Below, one piece after another: positions 1 to 34,143 of a stretch of 64,000 bases of DNA. The translations under genes were made by a program, and so were the position numbers. The stretch covers positions 1,129,742 through 1,193,741 of the forward strand of contig NZ_HG315690.1 of assembly GCF_000455345.1 (NCBI RefSeq), given 5' to 3'. Position 1 is the stretch's first letter. Each line of letters starts with the position of its first letter. Below the pieces are notes generated by a model. The model ran no database searches. It saw only the letters and a list, made by a program, of their open reading frames with translations, and was not told the origin of the DNA. Source of the DNA: Halopiger goleimassiliensis. GTDB lineage: Archaea > Halobacteriota > Halobacteria > Halobacteriales > Natrialbaceae.

Positions 1-694
1 CGGAGTAGGCGCTGACGGTGCCGAACGTGATGCCGATCACCGCCACGATGGTGGTCGTGATGAAGGCGATCTGCATGCTGATGGTCATCCCGTGAACGAT
101 CCCGGCGAAGACGCCTTCCCCGGCGCGGGTCGTCCCCAGCGGGTACTCCCAGGTGCCGTAACACCTGCCGTTGGCCATCTCACCGAGACACTGCGAGACG
201 TACACCGAGTCGACCGAGGCGAACACCGGCGGCTGGAAGCCGGCCAGGATGTCCTGTTCCGGGGCGCTGATGAAGAACGGTCCGAGCAGTCCGCCCACGA
301 AGATGATCCCGAGCCACACCAGGCTCACGACCGCGGGCCGGTTGCGCTTGAACTCGGACCAGTAGTACTTCGTCATCCGCGGGTTCTGGTACAGCGGCAA
401 CACCAGGTACAGGAAGAACAACAGCAGCGTGAAGAGGAACAGGTAGTCGACGGACGACAGATCCTGATTGAGTCCGACCGTCTCGAACAGCCACGAGAGG
501 TTGAGATCCTGTCCCAGTTCTTCGAAGGTCGCTTTCCGCTCGCCGACGAATCGCCAGTCGTAGAACGCGAGCGCGAGCAACGGAATCGTCGCCGCGAGCA
601 TCAACTTCGAATTGATCGAGAGCGAGATCCCCCTCGAGTCGGCGAATTCCTCCCAATCGACGCGATCGAACCGATCCGGTTGTTCCGTTGCCAT
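1..694 (-). CDS. Dipeptide/oligopeptide ABC transporter permease, DppC-like (partial)
   Basis: This is the first 231 or so residues of an inner-membrane permease; the rest lies beyond the left edge. The protein starts MATEQPDRF at the ATG on positions 692-694, two bases after the stop of the DppB-like gene, which fits one operon. It shows two early hydrophobic segments (around residues 30-45 and 75-95), a third after a charged stretch ending FKRNRP, and then an extracytoplasmic loop with a pair of Cys. The visible part ends in a membrane segment just before the region where the EAA loop would lie. The N-terminal extension before the usual DppC start is longer than in bacterial DppC. Substrate is unknown; a peptide is likely from the family. 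Confidence 0.85.
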   Translation of the reverse strand, partial: MATEQPDRFDRVDWEEFADSRGISLSINSKLMLAATIPLLALAFYDWRFVGERKATFEELGQDLNLSWLFETVGLNQDLSSVDYLFLFTLLLFFLYLVLPLYQNPRMTKYYWSEFKRNRPAVVSLVWLGIIFVGGLLGPFFISAPEQDILAGFQPPVFASVDSVYVSQCLGEMANGRCYGTWEYPLGTTRAGEGVFAGIVHGMTISMQIAFITTTIVAVIGITFGTVSAYS

Positions 695-696
695 AG

Positions 697-1671
697 TTAT
701 CTATCGTCGTAGCTGATCCGCGGATCCATGATGGTGAATACGAGGTCCTCGAGCAGGTTGCCGACGACTGCGATGAAGGTAAACACCAGCGTCGACCCGA
801 CCACGAGGTTCGTGTCCTGTGCGACCACCGCGTCGAAGGTCAGCCGGCCGAGGCCGGGTATACTGAAGACCACCTCGACCAGCAGCGACGAGCCGAGGAA
901 GACGAACAGCAGTTGCCCGACCAGCGTCGTCGATAGCGGTACCATCGTCGGCCGCATGACGTGGTAGGCGTATGCGCGCAAGGGCGAGACGCCCTTCGCC
1001 TTGGCCGTCTTCATGAAGTCCGCGTTCAGGAACTCCGCCGATTCGTTCCGCGAGACGCGCATCAGCCCGCCTATCGACCCCGTCACGAGGACGAACACGG
1101 GCAAGACCAACTGTCTCGCGTTCTCGAGGCTGAATACGGGGACGTTCGGATCGAACGATACCGGAACCCAACCTGCCCAGATCCCGAAGATCAACAGCAG
1201 GATGATCCCGAAGAAGAAGTTCGGGATCGCGTAGCCGAAGAACGCGAAACCGGTCGCGACGTGGTCCTTCCAGCTGTACATGTTCACGGCGGAGTAGACC
1301 CCGACGAACGGACCGATCAGCACCGTGAGGATCGTCCACGGGACCGAGTACTGTGCCGTGACGTACAGCGCCTCGAGGAGTGCCTGCGTCACCGGCTGGC
1401 TCCGGTAGTCCGACCAGCCCCAGTCGAAGGTGTAGACGCTGGTGACGTAGTCGACGTACCTGACGTGGAGCGGTTGGTTGAGGCCGCGTAACTCGCGTTC
1501 TCGTTGCATGGCCTCGGCCGGATCGCCGCCCTGGAGCGCCGCTTGCGTCGCCGCCTCCTGGACGTTCGGATCCGGCGACAGCGCCAGCAACACGAACGTA
1601 ATCGAGACGATAATAAACGATACGAACGCCGCCCACGCTACGCGTAAACTAATGTATCGTGCTAGACCCAT
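697..1671 (-). CDS. Dipeptide/oligopeptide ABC transporter permease, DppB-like
   Basis: A 324-residue membrane permease of the binding-protein-dependent transport (BPD_transp_1) class. An N-terminal TM segment (residues 9-31) is followed by a periplasmic-type loop carrying RGLNQPLHVRYVDYV, the usual DppB pattern of 'lGL..p...rY..y'. The EAA-type cytoplasmic loop is visible near residues 215-240 (FMKTAKAKGVSPLRAYAYH), and the C-terminus ends in the family hallmark DPRISYDDR. It forms the transmembrane channel with the neighbouring DppC-like protein. The gene lies 104 bases after the binding-protein gene on the same strand. No ATPase genes of this operon are visible; they may lie to the left of the window. 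Confidence 0.92.
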   Translation of the reverse strand: MGLARYISLRVAWAAFVSFIIVSITFVLLALSPDPNVQEAATQAALQGGDPAEAMQRERELRGLNQPLHVRYVDYVTSVYTFDWGWSDYRSQPVTQALLEALYVTAQYSVPWTILTVLIGPFVGVYSAVNMYSWKDHVATGFAFFGYAIPNFFFGIILLLIFGIWAGWVPVSFDPNVPVFSLENARQLVLPVFVLVTGSIGGLMRVSRNESAEFLNADFMKTAKAKGVSPLRAYAYHVMRPTMVPLSTTLVGQLLFVFLGSSLLVEVVFSIPGLGRLTFDAVVAQDTNLVVGSTLVFTFIAVVGNLLEDLVFTIMDPRISYDDR

Positions 1672-1775
1672 ATCTGTACCGTGTCTGCGTCAGTTCTCAG
1701 ATTCATATCAGCTCCGCCGAATGCATTTGTCTTCCCCAGATCTAGTGGTCCTCGTCGAGAGATTCGACTACGGAC

Positions 1776-3711: not shown

Positions 3712-4212
3712 CTAACGATTGTCTTGCAAAAGGAGTAGATGTGCGTTTACTGGCCACCACGTTTGGCGTACAAACAACGGAATGACGAGCAAATGCGCGC
3801 ATGAATCGAATATTTTTACACCCGCGCTCAAACGGCCTAACAGGCCGAATTACGTCCAGTTCGTTATCATATTCCGGGGTGGAATAGCATCGTCGTTTCT
3901 GAACGTTCGTCGTAAATGATCACATTCCACGGCCAAGACGTCAGCCGTCGGATCGGAGTCCTCGACAGAGAGACGACGCGGTCGCTTCGAAGCCGCGTAC
4001 GAACGGAAATCCGGGTCGATAGCGCCACAAGTTCGCCATCCCGGGTACGATAGAACTGCCGAGTTTCCGAGAGAAGTCGCTGACGGGTGAACGACGAGCG
4101 AATGCGTCCAGTGATCGGTGCGGGGGCGACTCCCTCCCACAGACCGGATGGAAGCCCGTTACACCACAGATCCATTGTTTAAATGATTTTTACTCCTATA
4201 TCGCCACTGTCG
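3712..4212. other. Intergenic region between divergent transporter operons, no supported gene
   Basis: About 500 bases between the two divergently transcribed transporter operons. Short reading frames exist on the minus strand (up to about 100 codons), but they are rich in Arg/Ser, have no recognisable motif and lack the acidic composition of the flanking genes. I see no convincing gene. The region probably holds control sequences for both operons. Confidence 0.6.
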
Positions 4213-4293
4213 CACATGTTTGTCCACTAACTACCAGAATAGGTTGAGGTGTTCCTCCCGGTATATGGCGACAACTTTATATCACATGTTTGT
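4213..4293 (+). repeat. Pair of 11-bp direct repeats flanking the promoter of the rightward transporter operon
   Basis: The sequence cacatgtttgt occurs exactly at 4213-4223 and again at 4283-4293, 70 bases apart. The second copy begins at the downstream edge of a TATA-like box and ends 13 bases before the start codon, a position typical of an operator. No regulator gene lies next to it. Confidence 0.55.
4276..4282 (+). promoter_or_regulatory. TATA-like promoter of the rightward peptide transporter
   Basis: The motif tttatat lies 25-31 bases before the ATG at 4307. This fits a leaderless archaeal transcript and favours the 4307 start over an upstream in-frame ATG at 4220. Confidence 0.6.
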
Positions 4294-4306
4294 GCTAGGC
4301 ACTGCT

Positions 4307-6157
4307 ATGCCGGATGCTAAGGAACGGCAGGACGTAGATCAGACACGACGAACGATGCTCGCGGTTCTGGGGGGAAGCGCAACGGTCGGACTCGCCGGAT
4401 GTTCCGCACTCATCGACGACGGGAACGGCGAGGACGGCAACGGTGACGGCAACGGTGACGGCTGGGAGGACCTGGAAACCAGCGAGAACGCCGACAAGGC
4501 CCAGGCTGCCTGGGAACGAGTCCTCGAGAACACCGCCCCCGAAGAGGAGGACGTCCGCAACGAGGCCTACATAGAGATCGAGGAGGCCGTCAGGGACGAC
4601 ATGGTCATCCTCCCCCTCTATCACGAACTCGAGGAGATCTTCTCCTACGACTACGTCGACGCCCCCGAAACGGGGTCGCTCGGCTTCTGGATGCAGCAGC
4701 ACAACCGGACGGAGCTGACCAACGGCGACGACGAACTCACGCTGTTGAACTCCAGCTTCGACGAACTCGACCCGATCATGTCCACCGACACCGCCTCGGG
4801 TCGGGTCATCAACCAGATCTACGAGAAGCTGACCCACTACACCAACGGGACGGACGAAGTCGAGAACCAACTCCTCGAGGACTTCACTCTCTCGGACGAC
4901 GGTCTGACCTACACCTTCGAGATCAAGGAGGGCGTCCAGTTCCACGACGGCCGCGAGCTGACCGCCGACGACATCAAGTACTCGTGGCGGCGGATGGCCG
5001 AATCCGAGTACAGCGAGCGACAGACGTTCATGATCGCGACGCCGAACGGGCTCGGCATCGAGTACGAGGAGTCCGACGACGGCGGCATCGAACCGGACTC
5101 CATCGCGGTCGACGTGATCGACGACTACACGTTCGAGGTCACGCTCCGCGAACCCAACCCGAAAACGATCGAAATCCTCACGTACTCGGCGTTCGCCGCC
5201 ATTCCGGAAGGTCTCGTCGGCGACATCGAGGGCTACGACGGCGAAATCGACCACGGGGAGTTCCAGACGGACACCGCAATCGGAACGGGTCCGTTCCAGT
5301 ACGAGGAGTTCAACCCCGGCGAGGACATGGTCGTCAGCCGGTTCGACGACTACCACGGCGAAACGGCCAGCGTCGAGACGATCCGCTGGCTCGAGATCGA
5401 GGACGCGGAAGCCCAGTGGACGAACATCGTCGAAGGGAACCTCGACATCTTCGACATCCCGACGCCGCAGTACGACCCCGACCTGATCGACGCCGAGGAA
5501 GACGAGGCGGGCAACCGCTCGGGCGAGTACGGCCCGATCGAGAACGACGAGGTGCTCAACTACAGCGCAGCGCCCCAGACGAGCATCTACTACTTCGGCT
5601 TCAACGTCACGAACGTTCCCCGGCCGGTCCGACGTGCTATCGCGTACGTCACCGACCACGAGGAACTCATCGAAGAGGTTTTCTCGGAACGCGGCTCCCC
5701 GGCGTACAGCTTCACGCCGCCGGGCCTCTGGCCCACGGGTGAGGAAGGGTACGAACAGTGGGTCGACGAGTGGCCCTACGGCGTCAACGAGACCGACACC
5801 GAAAGCGCCGCCGACGAACTCGAGGAGGCCGGCTTCACCGAGGACGACCCGTTCGAGCTGACCGCCAACACGTACGCCAGCGCGCCGGAGTACGCCGACC
5901 TGGCCGACCTGATCCGCCAGAAGCTCTCCGGTCTCGGCGTCGAGATCCAGATCGAAGAGACGCAGTTCTCCACGCTGCAGGACCGCGGTGAGGACGGCGA
6001 CCTCGAGATGTACTCGCTCGGCTGGACCTGGAGCTGGGTCGACCCCGCGTACGGTCACTACGGGTTCGAACCCAAACTCACCAACACGTCCGAGATGCCC
6101 GAAAACGGGGGCAGCTACTACCTCGACTGGCACACCAACCTCGACGAAGAGGCCTGA
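4307..6157 (+). CDS. ABC transporter substrate-binding lipoprotein, SBP_bac_5 family, apparently circularly permuted
   Basis: A 616-residue Tat lipoprotein. The signal has QTRRTMLAVLGG and a lipobox LAGC with Cys32, then a Gly/Asp/Asn linker. Residues about 57-128 (NEAYIEIEEAVRDDMVILPL, then YHELEEIFSYDYVDAP) match what is normally the C-terminal end of this family (the pattern 'r..y.eiq.ii.ed.p.ipLy'). The usual N-terminal start of domain I (LTLLNSSFDELDPIMS) follows only at about residue 143. The protein then runs colinearly through GVQFHDGRELTADDIKYSWR and WSWVDPAYGHYGFEP, and stops at YYLDWHTNLDEEA, where normal members continue into the segment found here at the front. It heads a five-gene operon with DppB, DppC and two ATPases. 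The family binds peptides or similar oligomers; the ligand here is unknown. Confidence 0.9.
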   Translation: MPDAKERQDVDQTRRTMLAVLGGSATVGLAGCSALIDDGNGEDGNGDGNGDGWEDLETSENADKAQAAWERVLENTAPEEEDVRNEAYIEIEEAVRDDMVILPLYHELEEIFSYDYVDAPETGSLGFWMQQHNRTELTNGDDELTLLNSSFDELDPIMSTDTASGRVINQIYEKLTHYTNGTDEVENQLLEDFTLSDDGLTYTFEIKEGVQFHDGRELTADDIKYSWRRMAESEYSERQTFMIATPNGLGIEYEESDDGGIEPDSIAVDVIDDYTFEVTLREPNPKTIEILTYSAFAAIPEGLVGDIEGYDGEIDHGEFQTDTAIGTGPFQYEEFNPGEDMVVSRFDDYHGETASVETIRWLEIEDAEAQWTNIVEGNLDIFDIPTPQYDPDLIDAEEDEAGNRSGEYGPIENDEVLNYSAAPQTSIYYFGFNVTNVPRPVRRAIAYVTDHEELIEEVFSERGSPAYSFTPPGLWPTGEEGYEQWVDEWPYGVNETDTESAADELEEAGFTEDDPFELTANTYASAPEYADLADLIRQKLSGLGVEIQIEETQFSTLQDRGEDGDLEMYSLGWTWSWVDPAYGHYGFEPKLTNTSEMPENGGSYYLDWHTNLDEEA

Positions 6158-25500: not shown

Positions 25501-26640
25501 TTACAGGATCTGGTCGGCGATGATGTTCTTCTGGATCTCGCTGGTGCCCTCGTAGATCTTCGTGATGCGGGCGTCGCGGTAGTAGCGCTCTGCGGGGTAG
25601 TCCGTGACGTAGCCCGAGCCGCCGTGGACCTGAATGCCTTCGTCGGCGACCTCGACCGAGATTTCGGAGGCGAACAGCTTCGCCATGCTCGAGTACTGCG
25701 CGGCGATGTCCTGGTTCTCCTCTTCGACCTGGGCCGCCGCGCGGTAGGTCAGCGAGCGGGCGGCCTCGACCTTCGTCGCCATCTCGGCGAGTTTGTGTTC
25801 GATGGCCTGGAACTCCTTGATCGGCTGGCCGAACTGTTCGCGCTCGTTCGCGTACTCGACGGCGGCGTCGAGCGCGCCCTGGGCGGCACCGACGGCCTGC
25901 GCGGCGACGTTGGTACGGCCGGCGGCGAAGAACTCCATCAGCTGGTAGAAGCCCTGGTCGACCTCACCGATGACGTTCTCCTCGGGGACGCGAACGTCGT
26001 CAAGGATGACTTCCGCGAGGTCCGACGCGCGGATGCCGAGCTTGTTGTCGATCTTCTCGGTCGTGATGCCGTCCCAGTCCATCTCGACGAGGAAGGCGGT
26101 GATGCCGCGGTGGCCCTCGCCGGGGCTCGTTTTGGCCATGAGAACGCCGACGTCGGCGACGGTCCCGTTGGTGATCCACATCTTGTTCCCGTTGACGACG
26201 TACTCGTCGCCGTCCTTCTCGGCGGTCGTCTCCATCCCGGCGACGTTCGACCCGTGGGCAGGCTCGGAGATCATCGAGACGGACGCGACCTCGCCGTTGG
26301 CGATCTTTGGGAGCCACTCCTCTTTCATCCACTCGTCGCCGAACTCGATGATCATGTTCGAGCCGAACCCGGCGCTCCCGATCGCGGAGCCGATCCCCGG
26401 ATCCGCACGCCAGAGTTCCTCGGTGACGATGGTGCTCGCGATCTTGTCCATCCCGGCACCGCCGTACTCGAGCGGGATGCTCGGCGCGACGAAGTCGTAC
26501 TCGGCGGCTTTCTTGCGGAGGTCCTCGGGATACTTCCCTTCCTGGTCGTGCTCCTCGGCAACGGGCTTGATCTCGTTTTCGCCGAACTCGCGGACGGCCT
26601 CGCGAATCGCTTTCTGCTCGTCCGATAGCCTGAATGCCAT
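25501..26640 (-). CDS. Acyl-CoA dehydrogenase
   Basis: A 379-residue flavoprotein of the acyl-CoA dehydrogenase family. The N-terminal helical domain (MAFRLSDEQKAIREAVREFG) is followed by a beta domain with SMISEPAHGSNVAGMETTAE and YVVNGNKMWITNGTVADVGV. The C-terminal helical domain has AAGRTNVAAQAVGAAQGALD, AVEYANEREQFGQPIKEFQ and the late IYEGTSEIQKNIIADQIL. It likely introduces the first double bond in an acyl-CoA and passes electrons to ETF. It is the last gene of a leftward set with the ligase and TRAP transporter. The start 23 codons upstream is rejected in favour of MAFRLSDEQ. Confidence 0.95.
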   Translation of the reverse strand: MAFRLSDEQKAIREAVREFGENEIKPVAEEHDQEGKYPEDLRKKAAEYDFVAPSIPLEYGGAGMDKIASTIVTEELWRADPGIGSAIGSAGFGSNMIIEFGDEWMKEEWLPKIANGEVASVSMISEPAHGSNVAGMETTAEKDGDEYVVNGNKMWITNGTVADVGVLMAKTSPGEGHRGITAFLVEMDWDGITTEKIDNKLGIRASDLAEVILDDVRVPEENVIGEVDQGFYQLMEFFAAGRTNVAAQAVGAAQGALDAAVEYANEREQFGQPIKEFQAIEHKLAEMATKVEAARSLTYRAAAQVEEENQDIAAQYSSMAKLFASEISVEVADEGIQVHGGSGYVTDYPAERYYRDARITKIYEGTSEIQKNIIADQIL

Positions 26641-26782
26641 ACCTAACGATTGTATGGCGAATACAAAATAGCTTCGGATGGTTCCGAACGTTGCAAACAG
26701 TACTCCCACTCTAGTAAACGTTGTAAAGTAATACAGGAGTGTAGGTTACCGATAGAATAACAGAGAGCGGGCGGCCGTCGGG

Positions 26783-28396: not shown

Positions 28397-30787
28397 TTAC
28401 TCCGCCGATGCGTCGACCGACGTGCTCGAGTGCTCGAGGTCGTAACCGACGAGATACCGTGCTCGCACCAACAGCGCGATGATTGCCACCGCGGCGACGG
28501 CCTGGACGACCATTCCGGCGGTGCCACCGGCAAGCGATCCGAACATCGCCGCGAAGCCGGCACCGACATAGAAGAGTCGCATCGGCGCGGAGAGCGTTCG
28601 GGCACCGTCAAACCCGACCGTCGCGACGATGAGGCCGATCGTTCCCGCGAGGACGACCGGGAATGCGAACAGCGTCATCGTCGACCACTCGATGAGGCTG
28701 TTGTTCGCGACGAACGCGAACGGGATGACGAAACCGGGCGCACCGATACGAAGCGCCTGCACGCAGGCACTCATAAAGCTCGTCCCGGCGATCCGTGAGC
28801 CGACCGCCACGGAGATAGCAACCGGGGGCGTGATCGCCGAGAGCATCGCGAAGTAGAAGACGAACATGTGGGTCGTGATCTGCGGAACGGCCAGTTCGAT
28901 CACCGGCTCGGCGACCAGGAACGCGACCAGAATGTACGCCGCGGGCGTCGGCATTCCGAGACCGAACGCAATGCTGGTGATCATCGCGAGCACCAACACG
29001 AGCGCCAGTCCGCCGGTGAACCCGAAGATCGTGACGTCCGCGAAGCCGATGATCCGCGCTCCGAGGCGACCGGTCAGTCCGCTCGTCTCGAGCAGTTCGA
29101 CGATCAGTCCCATCGCGGCGAGGACGCCCACGAGCGGCGCCATCTCGAGGCCGCCTTGTTTGAGCCCCTCGGCAGTTTCACCCGTCGTTCGTCGGACGGA
29201 TCGGACGGACGACCTCCCGACCCGTTTGACCGTCGCAGCGCTCGTAAGGCTCCAAACGAACGTCCGAATGGCGGAGAGAACGACGCGGACGGCAGCCACG
29301 ATCAGACGGGGGATTGCCCGAATCACGTCGACGAGTGTCGGTCGGTCGAAGTCGCGATCCAGCGTCCGCTGCACCCGTCGATCCGCGTCGAATACGTCGA
29401 CGAGGAGATTCCGGGCGAAGATGACGAAGACGATCGTGAAAATCGTGTACAACCCCGCCGACAGCGGCGTCCACCGCAGAACGATGAGGGTGTAGAGCAA
29501 CACTGCCAGCGGAATCATGAAGTGAACGCCGCCGAGCAGCACCCGCCAGTCGAACGACGAGAGGTCGTCGGTCGTCCATCCGAATTTGAGGATGGTGAAA
29601 TGTACTGCCACGAAGACGCTCAAGTAGAACAACGTCGCCGGGATGACGCCCGCCTGGACGATCTCGAGGTATGGGACGCCGACGATGTCGGCCATGAGGA
29701 ACGCGGCGACGCCCATGACCGGCGGCAACATCTGCCCGCCGGCGGAGGCGACGGCTTCGATCGACGCCGCGAAGTCGTCGCGCACGCCCTGGTCTTTGAT
29801 CATCGGGATCGTGAAGCTCCCGGTGGTCGCGGTGTTTGCCGCCGCGCTCCCGGTGATCGATCCCATAATCATACTCGAGATGACCGCGATCTGAACGACG
29901 CCAGTCCGGAGCGTACTGCCCAGTTCTGTCCCCACCCGTCGGACGAACTCCATGAGGCCGTAGGCCTTGGCGATCCCGGCGAACATGATGAAGATGGCGA
30001 CCCACGTCGCGCCGATCCCCATTATCGTACTGTCGTAGACTCCCGAGTGAACCCCAAGTGCTGCTTCTTCGATGATTCCGGTGAGGTCTTCACCCGTCCA
30101 GGCCAGCAGATCCGGTAAAAATCCCAGCGTACTCACCGATTCGTGGGAGTAGACGATCGCGAACACCGCTACCGAGGCGATGATCCAGCCGAACGCACGG
30201 CGGGTCGCGTCTGTCACGAGGACGATCAACGCCGCTCCGACGACGTGATCCATCGACGAGAAGCCAAGGATGTGAGCATCGCCCTCGAGCCTGCCGAACT
30301 CGGCCGTAACGTAGGCCATCGTCGCGAGCGAGAGGACGGCGAGTCCGATCGCGAGGTACGGATCGACCCGGCCGTACGCACGCTCGAGCCTGTCGAGACC
30401 GTCCGGCAGTCGTCCGCCGAATCCCCGGCCTTTCCCGACTTTCGTCTCCTCGGAAGCCTCCGAAAGCGTCTCCGGGTCGGACGCTCCCGACGCGTCCGTC
30501 TCGTCGGCCACGTCATGTCGGTTCGCGAACGCACGACGGGCGTAATCCAGGTAGTAGACAGCGAGTCCCCACCCGGTGAAGATGACGACGTACTCGGCCT
30601 GTTCCGCGAACACGAGCTCCGAGGGGACGTAGGGCCTGAACGAGACGCCGGCGAAGCTCAGGTTCGTCAGGATGAAGACTGCGTAGTAGACCGTAAAGAG
30701 GGTCAAAAGCGCCGCCATGACGGACGTCGTTCCGGCTAACAACCGGTACGGCGTCAGTCGTCCGATACGAGAGCGCGAGAGAGACAT
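28397..30787 (-). CDS. TRAP transporter fused permease, TAXI type (DctQM-like)
   Basis: A 796-residue membrane protein that joins the small and large TRAP permease subunits. N-terminal TM segments (GTTSVMAALLTLFTVYYAVF) precede the 12-TM DctM-like core. Typical core motifs are SSMIMGSITGSAAANTATTG, PMIKDQGVRDDFAASIEAVA, SAGGQMLPPVMGVAAFLMA, and the second repeat GLGMPTPAAYILVAFLVAEP with AMLSAITPPVAISVAVGSRI. A cytoplasmic basic loop (about residues 475-540) lies between the two halves. It imports an organic acid using an ion gradient, with the TAXI binding protein encoded six bases upstream. Confidence 0.94.
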   Translation of the reverse strand: MSLSRSRIGRLTPYRLLAGTTSVMAALLTLFTVYYAVFILTNLSFAGVSFRPYVPSELVFAEQAEYVVIFTGWGLAVYYLDYARRAFANRHDVADETDASGASDPETLSEASEETKVGKGRGFGGRLPDGLDRLERAYGRVDPYLAIGLAVLSLATMAYVTAEFGRLEGDAHILGFSSMDHVVGAALIVLVTDATRRAFGWIIASVAVFAIVYSHESVSTLGFLPDLLAWTGEDLTGIIEEAALGVHSGVYDSTIMGIGATWVAIFIMFAGIAKAYGLMEFVRRVGTELGSTLRTGVVQIAVISSMIMGSITGSAAANTATTGSFTIPMIKDQGVRDDFAASIEAVASAGGQMLPPVMGVAAFLMADIVGVPYLEIVQAGVIPATLFYLSVFVAVHFTILKFGWTTDDLSSFDWRVLLGGVHFMIPLAVLLYTLIVLRWTPLSAGLYTIFTIVFVIFARNLLVDVFDADRRVQRTLDRDFDRPTLVDVIRAIPRLIVAAVRVVLSAIRTFVWSLTSAATVKRVGRSSVRSVRRTTGETAEGLKQGGLEMAPLVGVLAAMGLIVELLETSGLTGRLGARIIGFADVTIFGFTGGLALVLVLAMITSIAFGLGMPTPAAYILVAFLVAEPVIELAVPQITTHMFVFYFAMLSAITPPVAISVAVGSRIAGTSFMSACVQALRIGAPGFVIPFAFVANNSLIEWSTMTLFAFPVVLAGTIGLIVATVGFDGARTLSAPMRLFYVGAGFAAMFGSLAGGTAGMVVQAVAAVAIIALLVRARYLVGYDLEHSSTSVDASAE

Positions 30788-30793
30788 CGGTCG

Positions 30794-31891
30794 TTACCCG
30801 TCAAGTGCGTGTTCGAGTGCGTGCTCGAGGCCGGGAGCGGTACCGGAGCCGCTCGGAGTCGGCGATACGGTCATTCCTTCCTCGATGTCCGAGATCGTCT
30901 CGAGATCCATGTTGTTGGTAATGAAGAACCACGGCAGGTCGTAGTAGTGGAACACCTGCGCCATCTCGAAATCGATCTCGTCGAACGGTTCGACGTCGTC
31001 GCGGTACTCGCGAGCCGTCCAGTTCTGGAGGTAGCCCATCTCGATGTCCTCGGAGGCGATGTCCCCGATGTTCTCCTCGGTTCCGTTGCTCGTCTGGGCC
31101 TCGATGGAAAACTCGTCGAGGTGGTCGTTCATGACGGCCGCGAGCGCCTCGTTGGCGGCGTGACCAGTCGTTCCCGACTCGGAGGTCTTCATCCGGATTA
31201 CGTCCGATTCGATCGGGTCGTCGGGTTCGTCGGCCCGTTCGAAGTCGTCGCTCCAGACGCCGAGTTCCTCCTCGTAGAAATCGGCAGCGGCGGGGTGGAA
31301 CGGGATCCCCTCGTAGGCGTTCTGGACCCAGAACTCCGGATTATCGTGGAACGCGAAGATGCCGAACTCGTCGGCCAGATCTTGGCGGAGGTCCCACATC
31401 GTCTCGAGGTAGGTGTAGACGAGATCGTAGTCGAGTTCCGCCCGCGTTACGAAGTTGTACGCGAACGTCGGACAGGGAAGCTCTCCGGGGACGTCGACGT
31501 GGTCGTTGTCGGCACCCTCGAGGTCGTTCGTATCAAGGTCCTGAATGAGCAGCATGTCGTCGTCCCGCCAGGCTTCCGCGGTCTCGTCGGCGACGTCGAG
31601 GATCCGGAACTCGTCGACGGATGCGATGGCCTCCTGGACCCAGCCCGGCGTTATCGAGAAGTTCATCATCGTCCCGACGCCGACGTCGAGTCGACCTTCG
31701 TTCAGGGCACCCCCCTGTTCAGTGAAACTCTCGCTGACGCGTTCGTAGCTGGCTGACCCTTCCGTACCACCGTTTCCGTCGGCGGCGTTCTCTCCGTTAC
31801 CACCGTCGAGACAGCCCGCTAACGCGGCGGTCGTTCCGATACCTGCGGCTGCGAGAACTGATCGGCGTGTATGGAGGTCTCTCTGTTCCAT
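30794..31891 (-). CDS. TAXI-type TRAP transporter solute-binding lipoprotein, apparently circularly permuted
   Basis: A 365-residue Tat lipoprotein (TRRSVLAAAGIGTTAALAGC, Cys27). Residues 49-219 match the second half of normal TAXI proteins: ALNEGRLDVGVGTMMNFSIT ('aL.dG.iDa'), then FAYNFVTRAELDYDLVYTYL and near residues 196-208 GIPFHPAAADFYEE, the 'piPlHpGA..yy.e' end motif. Residues 229-365 match the first half: IRMKTSESGTTGHAANEALA ('tg..Ggty..g..la'), QTSNGTEENIGDIASEDIEM ('Ts.GS.eNi') and the late TVSPTPSGSGTAPGLEHALE, which normally sits mid-protein. The order is therefore swapped, with the natural ends joined by a short acidic linker near 219-229. It probably binds the acid taken up by the adjacent permease. 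Confidence 0.9.
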   Translation of the reverse strand: MEQRDLHTRRSVLAAAGIGTTAALAGCLDGGNGENAADGNGGTEGSASYERVSESFTEQGGALNEGRLDVGVGTMMNFSITPGWVQEAIASVDEFRILDVADETAEAWRDDDMLLIQDLDTNDLEGADNDHVDVPGELPCPTFAYNFVTRAELDYDLVYTYLETMWDLRQDLADEFGIFAFHDNPEFWVQNAYEGIPFHPAAADFYEEELGVWSDDFERADEPDDPIESDVIRMKTSESGTTGHAANEALAAVMNDHLDEFSIEAQTSNGTEENIGDIASEDIEMGYLQNWTAREYRDDVEPFDEIDFEMAQVFHYYDLPWFFITNNMDLETISDIEEGMTVSPTPSGSGTAPGLEHALEHALDG

Positions 31892-32074: not shown

Positions 32075-33238
32075 ATGCTCGATTACGTCCAACTCGAGGA
32101 GGACCTCGGCCAGGAAGAGCGGATGATCCGGGATACGGCCCGGGAGTTCGTCGAGGAACACGTCAAACCCGACATCGGCGAACACTTCGAGGAGGGGACG
32201 TTCCCGACCGACCTGATCCCCGAGATGGGAGAACTCGGCTTTTACGCCCCGAATCTCGAGGGCTATGGCTCGCCGAACGTCTCCGAGACGGCCTACGGCC
32301 TGTTGATGCAGGAACTCGAGGCCGGAGACTCGGGACTGCGTTCGATGGCATCGGTCCAGGGCGCGCTCGTCATGTATCCCATTCACGCGTACGGGAGCGA
32401 GGAACAGAAAGAGGAGTGGCTCCCGGCGCTGGGCAAGGGCGAGGCCGTCGGTTGTTTCGGCCTGACCGAACCCGAGCACGGCTCGAACCCCTCGGCGATG
32501 GAGACCCACGCGGAGGCCGACGGCGACGGCTACGTGCTCAACGGTTCGAAGACCTGGATCACGAACTCGCCGATCGCCGACGTCGCGGTCGTCTGGGCGC
32601 GTGATCGCTCCGATCCCGACGAGCCCGTCCGCGGGTTCCTCGTCGAGACCGATCGGGACGGCGTCACGACCAACAAGATCACCGAGAAACTCTCGCTGCG
32701 CGCGTCGATCACCGGCGAGATCGGTCTCAACGACGTCTACGTCCCCGAGGAGAACGTCCTGCCCGGCGTCGAGGGAATGAAGGGACCGCTGTCCTGTCTC
32801 ACGCAGGCCCGCTACGGCATCGCCTGGGGCGCAGTCGGCGCTGCCCGCGACTGCTTCGAGGAGGCTCGACAGTACGCCCAGGACCGCGAACAGTTCGGCG
32901 GTCCGATCGGTCGCTTCCAGTTGCAACAGGAGAAACTGGCGGAGATGGCCACCCAGATCACGCTCGGCCAACTGCTGGTCTACCGGATCGCCGACCTGAA
33001 AGAACGCGGCGACCTCCGGCCCCAGCACATCTCGCTGGCGAAACGGAACAACGTCCGGATGGCCCGCGAACAGGCCCGCGTGGCACGGGAGATGCTCGGC
33101 GGAAACGGCATCACGACTGACTATTCGCCCATGCGCCACCTCGCGAACATGGAGACAGTCTACACGTACGAGGGAACCCACGACATCCACACACTCATCC
33201 TCGGCGAGGACCTGACCGGGATCCCGGCCTACGAGTAA
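32075..33238 (+). CDS. gcdH: Glutaryl-CoA dehydrogenase-like acyl-CoA dehydrogenase
   Basis: A 387-residue acyl-CoA dehydrogenase closest in pattern to glutaryl-CoA dehydrogenase: DSGLRSMASVQGALVMYPIH, AVGCFGLTEPEHGSNPSAME, GSKTWITNSPIADVAVVWAR, LSLRASITGEIGLNDVYVPE, CLTQARYGIAWGAVGAARDC and the C-terminal TVYTYEGTHDIHTLILGEDL carrying the catalytic Glu of YEGT. The family oxidises and decarboxylates glutaryl-CoA to crotonyl-CoA in lysine/aromatic breakdown. It is divergent from the TAXI operon and directly upstream of an IclR regulator, which suggests a shared pathway. Decarboxylating versus non-decarboxylating activity cannot be decided here. Confidence 0.9.
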   Translation: MLDYVQLEEDLGQEERMIRDTAREFVEEHVKPDIGEHFEEGTFPTDLIPEMGELGFYAPNLEGYGSPNVSETAYGLLMQELEAGDSGLRSMASVQGALVMYPIHAYGSEEQKEEWLPALGKGEAVGCFGLTEPEHGSNPSAMETHAEADGDGYVLNGSKTWITNSPIADVAVVWARDRSDPDEPVRGFLVETDRDGVTTNKITEKLSLRASITGEIGLNDVYVPEENVLPGVEGMKGPLSCLTQARYGIAWGAVGAARDCFEEARQYAQDREQFGGPIGRFQLQQEKLAEMATQITLGQLLVYRIADLKERGDLRPQHISLAKRNNVRMAREQARVAREMLGGNGITTDYSPMRHLANMETVYTYEGTHDIHTLILGEDLTGIPAYE

Positions 33239-33384: not shown

Positions 33385-34143
33385 ATGGCGACGGACGACG
33401 AGCAGGGGGATGGGGTGTCGACCACCCGGAAGACGTTCGCGATCCTCGAGACGATCAGCGAGGAGGAAGGGATCTCGCTGACGGAACTCACGCGCCGGAC
33501 CGGGATGACGAAAAGTACCGTCTACCGGCACGTCTCGACGCTGACCGATCTGGGCTATCTGATCGAACGCGATGGGGGGTACTACATCGGCCTGCGCTTT
33601 CTGCAACTGAGCGAGACGGCCCGGACGCGAAAGACCGGGTACACCGCCGCGAAGCGGAAAGTGTTCGAACTCGGCCAGGAGACCGACGAGCGGGCCGTCT
33701 TCATCGTCGAGGAGGACTACGAAGCGGTCTACGTCCACCGATACGGCAGTCTGACAGACACGATGATCGGCCGGCGGCGACCGCTCCACTCGCTGGCGTC
33801 GGGCAAGGTCATCCTCGCCGAGTGGGACCGCGAGGCCGTCGACCGGTTCCTCGAGGCTCGTGGCCTCGAGCGGATGACGGCGAACACGATCACGGACCGC
33901 GATGCCCTCCTCGCGGAACTGGAGACGATCCGGGAGCGGGGGTACGCGATCAACGACGAAGAACACATGGACGGATTACGCGGGGTCGCCGTTCCCGTAT
34001 ATACGCCCGACGACGAGTTACTGGGGGCACTGGGCGTGTTCGGTCCGACGAGTCGATTCAAAGACGAGTACGTCCACGACGAGCTACCGACGCTGCTCCG
34101 GGACAAGGCCGGTGAGATCAGAGTGACGCTCGCGTACGGCTGA
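33385..34143 (+). CDS. IclR family transcriptional regulator
   Basis: A 252-residue regulator. Residues about 10-70 are a winged HTH (TTRKTFAILETISEEEGISL, then GMTKSTVYRHVSTLTDLGYL). Residues about 85-250 are the IclR effector domain (VEEDYEAVYVHRYGSLTDTM, RPLHSLASGKVILAEWDREA and a late MDGLRGVAVPVYTPDDELLG). Family members respond to small organic acids. Its position beside gcdH and the TRAP/ligase operon makes it the probable local regulator of that block. Confidence 0.93.
   Translation: MATDDEQGDGVSTTRKTFAILETISEEEGISLTELTRRTGMTKSTVYRHVSTLTDLGYLIERDGGYYIGLRFLQLSETARTRKTGYTAAKRKVFELGQETDERAVFIVEEDYEAVYVHRYGSLTDTMIGRRRPLHSLASGKVILAEWDREAVDRFLEARGLERMTANTITDRDALLAELETIRERGYAINDEEHMDGLRGVAVPVYTPDDELLGALGVFGPTSRFKDEYVHDELPTLLRDKAGEIRVTLAYG

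Follow-up and report, generated by a model that had tools for sequence, protein, structure and literature searches.

A gene on the minus strand of the window (the whole 64,000-nucleotide stretch of Halopiger goleimassiliensis DNA analyzed) very probably encodes a TAXI-type TRAP solute-binding protein (SBP) that has undergone natural circular permutation and that, judged from its sequence, would work with the fused permease encoded 6 nt downstream. The start codon (ATG) lies at 31889-31891 and the stop codon at 30794-30796. We split the unpermuted protein into three segments, A (ending in WFFIT), B1 (DLETLSDI...SGSGT...LEHAL), and B2 (from YERVS up to the C terminus), and represented each by one HMM. 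The parts of the gene are as follows.

30794..31891, minus strand: putative permuted TAXI-type TRAP solute-binding lipoprotein gene, 365 aa plus stop, in the order signal-B2-A-B1
31748..31891, minus strand: residues 1-48, twin-arginine signal (HTRRSVLAAAGIG), lipobox (LAGC27), and spacer, now joined to B2 (sequence read directly; relatives share the layout)
31223..31747, minus strand: residues 49-223, segment B2 (YERVS...PFHPAAADFYEE...FERADEP), profile positions 148-288 (segment HMM)
31199..31222, minus strand: residues 224-231 (about), linker DDPIESDV, bridging the canonical C terminus and the mature N terminus of the canonical protein (junction comparison with relatives)
30908..31198, minus strand: residues 232-328, segment A (IRMKTSESGTTG...TSNGTEEN...LQNW...WFFITNNM), profile positions 3-131 (segment HMM)
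30797..30907, minus strand: residues 329-365, segment B1 (DLETISD...SGSGTAPGLEHALEHALDG), now the C terminus (segment HMM)

Segment A is the canonical N-terminal half (the first part of lobe 1 and the first hinge strand), B1 is the first strand-helix unit of lobe 2, and B2 is the canonical C-terminal half, which comprises the remainder of lobe 2, the second hinge strand, and the C-terminal part of lobe 1. The twin-arginine signal and the lipobox (HTRRSVLAAAGIGTTAALAGC) together predict, under established rules, a Tat-exported lipoprotein.

A preliminary description of this DNA had proposed, from a series of quoted motifs, that the two halves are swapped relative to TAXI proteins and that the natural ends are joined by a linker at residues 219-229. 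All of the motifs are present in the order it gave. NMT1_3 (PF16868) matches the protein in two parts that come in the opposite order to that of the profile. A protein search aligned residues 236-353 with profile positions 3-125, and a six-frame search placed profile positions 3-131 downstream (3′) of positions 148-288 within the same single open frame. When the sequence was reordered in silico (residues 232-365 followed by 49-223), a single NMT1_3 match covered positions 3-288 of the 289 in the profile, and the score rose from 53.5 bits in the natural order to 64.2 bits (Pfam cut-off, 27 bits). The swap is thus borne out. The linker is also there, although its limits were a few residues off and are refined to about 224-231. 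Two outcomes named in advance as refuting the swap, a colinear full-length alignment and an assembly error, were checked: the profile does not align colinearly with the sequence in its natural order, and independent assemblies (below) have the identical order.

The score against TIGR02122 was 66.5 bits for the reordered sequence versus 61.7 bits for the natural order, both below the curated cut-off of 84.35 bits. Since the unpermuted sister sequence, L016, also falls below this cut-off at only 67.6 bits, the low score reflects haloarchaeal divergence rather than permutation alone. A profile of the reordered family matched solved TAXI SBPs over the full length (9ibp, 1.3e-14; 1us4, 5.5e-14; 8s4j [VcGluP], 5.7e-10); a phmmer search of the PDB with the window protein in its natural order gave no match. 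Profile searches found no homology to Type I sugar-binding proteins, the only match being NMT1_3/TRAP_TAXI. The segments are rotated, the old termini are joined, and the new termini are adjacent in unpermuted relatives, which meets the criterion for a circular permutant, and the protein fails the criterion of canonical A-B1-B2 order. From its order, B2-A-B1, we conclude on sequence grounds that the window SBP is a circular permutant of a TAXI SBP and not an ordinary member.

The segment HMMs were unambiguous for every subfamily SBP among the fetched loci except one broken gene. In that case (L074, genome G197, about 613-1695, minus strand), an unpermuted SBP runs across two frames with segment B2 broken, probably as a result of a frameshift in the gene or a sequencing error. 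Three segment orders were found: A-B1-B2 in unpermuted proteins, B2-A-B1 in type A (that of the window), and B1-B2-A in type B. Type A occurs in five genomes, namely, that of the window, Natronorubrum texcoconense (L004/L007), L035, L008, and Natrarchaeobaculum sulfurireducens (L006). The type A junction is clean: the protein ends at ...ALEHALDG and starts, past the lipoprotein spacer, at YERVS, two sites that lie next to each other in unpermuted relatives. Type B, with a different break, is found in 10 related genomes of two genera, and its junction is likewise clean (ending at ...WFFIADGGN and starting at LETLSDI). One genome of another family, L045, has the type A order with the same break as the window; a search of its family for further relatives of this lineage found only unpermuted ones. 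Unpermuted orthologues reach 66% identity to the window SBP. When a permuted-order profile was run against 393 genomes of the phylum, the window's genome and three of the type B genomes were the only ones with a match spanning the junction; the remaining TAXI proteins listed were matched as separate halves. One scan of genome contigs returned Natronorubrum texcoconense alone.

These relatives bear on whether the swap is merely an assembly or sequencing error in an ordinary gene. No support for such an error was found beyond the fact that the exact sequence is known from one genome only, whereas the proteins of the other four type A genomes, at 77 to 80% identity, have the identical order. In Natrarchaeobaculum sulfurireducens, two strains that come from different lakes each have the gene on a plasmid, where it is annotated as one intact CDS. 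The window gene itself is one open frame with a clean linker and is under purifying selection (below). We give an error essentially no credence, and it is ruled out by the independent assemblies with the same order.

The gene lies in a conserved cluster, the other members of which are as follows.

28397..30787, minus strand: TRAP transporter fused permease (TIGR02123, 385 bits), starting 6 nt past the SBP stop codon
26783..28342, minus strand: AMP-binding acyl-CoA ligase of the same conserved cluster (profile match and neighborhood comparison)
25501..26709, minus strand: acyl-CoA dehydrogenase of the same conserved cluster (profile match and neighborhood comparison)
32075..33238, plus strand: divergent acyl-CoA dehydrogenase, a conserved neighbor (NCBIfam matches, including glutaryl-CoA dehydrogenase, all under the cut-off)
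33385..34143, plus strand: IclR-type regulator, a conserved neighbor (profile match and neighborhood comparison)

The arrangement of IclR and divergent acyl-CoA dehydrogenase genes pointing away from SBP, fused permease, AMP-binding ligase, and acyl-CoA dehydrogenase genes is common to type A, type B, and unpermuted genomes. The divergent dehydrogenase gene is missing from L048, a type A genome, and in the unpermuted L076 the cluster is visible as far as the ligase gene in the stretch fetched. In L045, a permease frame directly follows the SBP gene and the flanking genes differ from those of the cluster. Unpermuted orthologues fill the same operon slot in relatives, the distance from the SBP stop codon to the permease start is 6 to 8 nt in types A and B, and nearly all permuted genomes of the family have no second SBP of the subfamily at the threshold used. 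From these three features, the swap appears to have happened in place, within a working operon.

Several features of individual loci were also observed. The window permease has about 20 to 30 extra residues in the linker from FARNLL to GLKQGG compared with other type A permeases, and this linker is longer in type A permeases than in those of type B and most unpermuted genomes. On the Natrarchaeobaculum sulfurireducens AArc-Mg plasmid (L088), an IS6-family transposase gene (4209-4805) lies upstream of the permuted SBP cluster, which is without the divergent acyl-CoA dehydrogenase gene seen in other genomes. L073 (G128) has two divergent unpermuted SBP-permease units in tandem, which shows that duplication of this transporter occurs.

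A rearranged gene for which there are no functional data could be a decaying or nonfunctional relic. However, dN/dS ratios were 0.05 to 0.21 for permuted pairs, near the 0.04 to 0.11 of unpermuted pairs and indicative of purifying selection; the signal and lipobox are intact; the close spacing ahead of the permease frame has been kept in both types; and, at the threshold used, the permuted protein is the sole SBP of its subfamily in nearly all genomes that have it. A relic is therefore highly improbable, and we rejected the pseudogene reading on the basis of selection, the intact signal and lipobox, and the retained permease coupling. Purifying selection, conserved binding positions (below), and close coupling to the permease indicate working transporters, in the absence of expression or binding data.

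Permutation by duplication is the standard model for such proteins and fission followed by fusion is the other of two accepted models (PMC3320104). Under the former, the SBP gene would have been duplicated in tandem, the C terminus of the first copy would have been fused to the mature N terminus of the second, and the product would have been trimmed to a single unit that kept the signal peptide of the first copy. The linkers fit this sequence of duplication, fusion, and trimming, because they are similar to the spacer found after the lipobox in unpermuted orthologues: GGSGETTVRMRTS is common to the linkers of the permuted type B proteins L036 and L009 and to canonical L039, VDTIRMKTS is common to permuted type A L004 and canonical L016, and the resemblance holds at the DNA level too. 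No duplicated or partly trimmed intermediate was found among the loci examined, and a search beside the permuted genes for leftovers of the parts they lack returned nothing better than chance matches (best E value, 0.05). The duplication route thus rests on the linker evidence, and fission-fusion, in which two separately encoded halves would have been rejoined in the other order, is not excluded. Clean breaks between segments, with nothing lost or repeated, would suit that second accepted model; against it, no separately encoded halves were seen among the loci examined, and the linkers have the appearance of a lipoprotein spacer from another complete copy. We regard fission-fusion as unlikely, though still worth keeping in mind, beside the duplication route.

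The number of origins was assessed with trees built on sequences all set to canonical order. Type A grouped with unpermuted L016, type B grouped with a different unpermuted group, and L045 formed its own branch. AU tests rejected clades joining A and B (p = 1.8e-75), A and L045 (6.6e-8), B and L045 (2.2e-5), and all permuted sequences (5.1e-6); the clades tested were chosen after the trees had been seen. The A-plus-B and A-plus-L045 clades were also rejected with segment A alone and with B2 alone. A single ancestral permutation would require that the three groups be related, with lateral transfer and recombination, drift of the termini, or reversion elsewhere accounting for the present pattern. 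Such a history is suggested by the break that type A and L045 share, and type A receives moderate support as a clade separate from L016, its canonical sister (79/74 in one tree and 99/77 in the other). Yet the trees place every permuted group beside or within canonical sequences, every joint clade tested at full length was rejected, and reversion requires a second permutation back. Furthermore, L045 is 74 to 75% identical to its best canonical match but only 54 to 64% identical to type A, and this holds in every segment. We therefore consider single ancestry improbable. The pattern is most simply read as three separate events of natural circular permutation in one subfamily, the third origin being represented by one genome, L045.

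We mapped the breaks with published domain limits for VcGluP (PMC11574862). By alignment, type A proteins are broken within domain 2, at about VcGluP residue 174/175, whereas the break of type B proteins falls at about 135/136, just past the first hinge strand. VcGluP contacts its ligand through S75, Q93, and G156, with Q93 the strongest binding determinant (8s4j; PMC11574862), and these residues align with T271, Q289, and G350 of the window SBP. The position of VcGluP Y45/Y46 corresponds to His244 (window positions 31160-31162); the usual binding-pocket Tyr is replaced by His (TTAY to TTGH) in both the window SBP and unpermuted L016, possibly reflecting a change of substrate that predates the permutation. 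AlphaFold2 run on the window protein and L004 (two sequences only) gave a mean pLDDT of 27.5. The full-length matches of the reordered profile to solved TAXI chains lead us to infer that the permuted chain would fold as the ordinary two-lobe clamp. With the aligned binding positions and the purifying selection, we further expect that it would bind a carboxylate and pass this on to the permease in the manner of ordinary TAXI proteins. The CoA ligase and acyl-CoA dehydrogenases (weakly glutaryl-CoA dehydrogenase-like) encoded nearby suggest an organic acid degraded as a CoA ester, but the substrate is not established.

The lipid anchor, in contrast, would hold the permuted SBP by lobe 2 and not by lobe 1, and alignment places this inferred move of the anchor in all three permuted lineages. 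It is possible, but no more than a tentative proposal, that at least three independent permutations, each with its break in lobe 2 or its first residues and each moving the anchor from lobe 1 to lobe 2, recurred through selection on the way the TRAP permease is presented with its anchored SBP.

The window SBP shares every segment with TAXI-type TRAP SBPs (TIGR02122/NMT1_3 PF16868; VcGluP, 8s4j; TtGluBP, 1us4/1us5), as well as most key binding positions, the lipoprotein signal, and a neighboring fused permease. It differs in having the order B2-A-B1 instead of A-B1-B2, in its inferred anchor on lobe 2, and in scoring under the TIGR02122 cut-off in either order. Its unpermuted haloarchaeal orthologues (L016; Natronorubrum aibiense, NZ_CP045489.1; Halalkalicoccus jeotgali, NC_014298.1) also adjoin a fused permease gene, and L016 has the flanking IclR and acyl-CoA dehydrogenase genes in common with the window, but all have the canonical A-B1-B2 order. 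The TAXI-GltS system of Bordetella (BP0403; PMC12344293) likewise includes a TAXI SBP of unusual architecture; there, however, extra domains have been added, and the text mentions no permutation (PMC12344293).

We found no report of a permuted TRAP/TAXI SBP in the literature searched, which was limited to open papers, and this absence is not proof. The nearest precedent in that literature is MglB-2, a permuted ABC sugar-binding protein (PMC4990184). TpMglB-2 (Tp0684) of Treponema pallidum is a permuted glucose-binding lipoprotein of an ABC transporter, termed "Type Ic" (PMC4990184). It too is a natural permutation of a two-lobe, lipid-anchored binding protein, and it retains ligand binding; it belongs to an unrelated SBP class, serves an ABC importer, and has its break in the N lobe (PMC4990184). 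Its permuted part is poorly conserved, so its authors could not exclude an origin from another gene (PMC4990184). The haloarchaeal case, in contrast, has close unpermuted orthologues and, apparently, several origins.

The permuted SBP of Natrarchaeobaculum is annotated as "substrate-binding domain-containing protein," whereas several unpermuted ones are annotated as TAXI; order-dependent annotation may thus miss permuted proteins. Close unpermuted orthologues in the same slot let cause and effect be separated, since the permease family and neighbors are constant while the chain order and anchor point differ. If the three origins in one subfamily hold true, these proteins would be well suited to testing why permutations arise and how the anchoring of the SBP and its lobe order influence docking and release in TRAP transporters. 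The family would thereby offer a natural experiment on SBP folding, membrane anchoring, and transporter docking.
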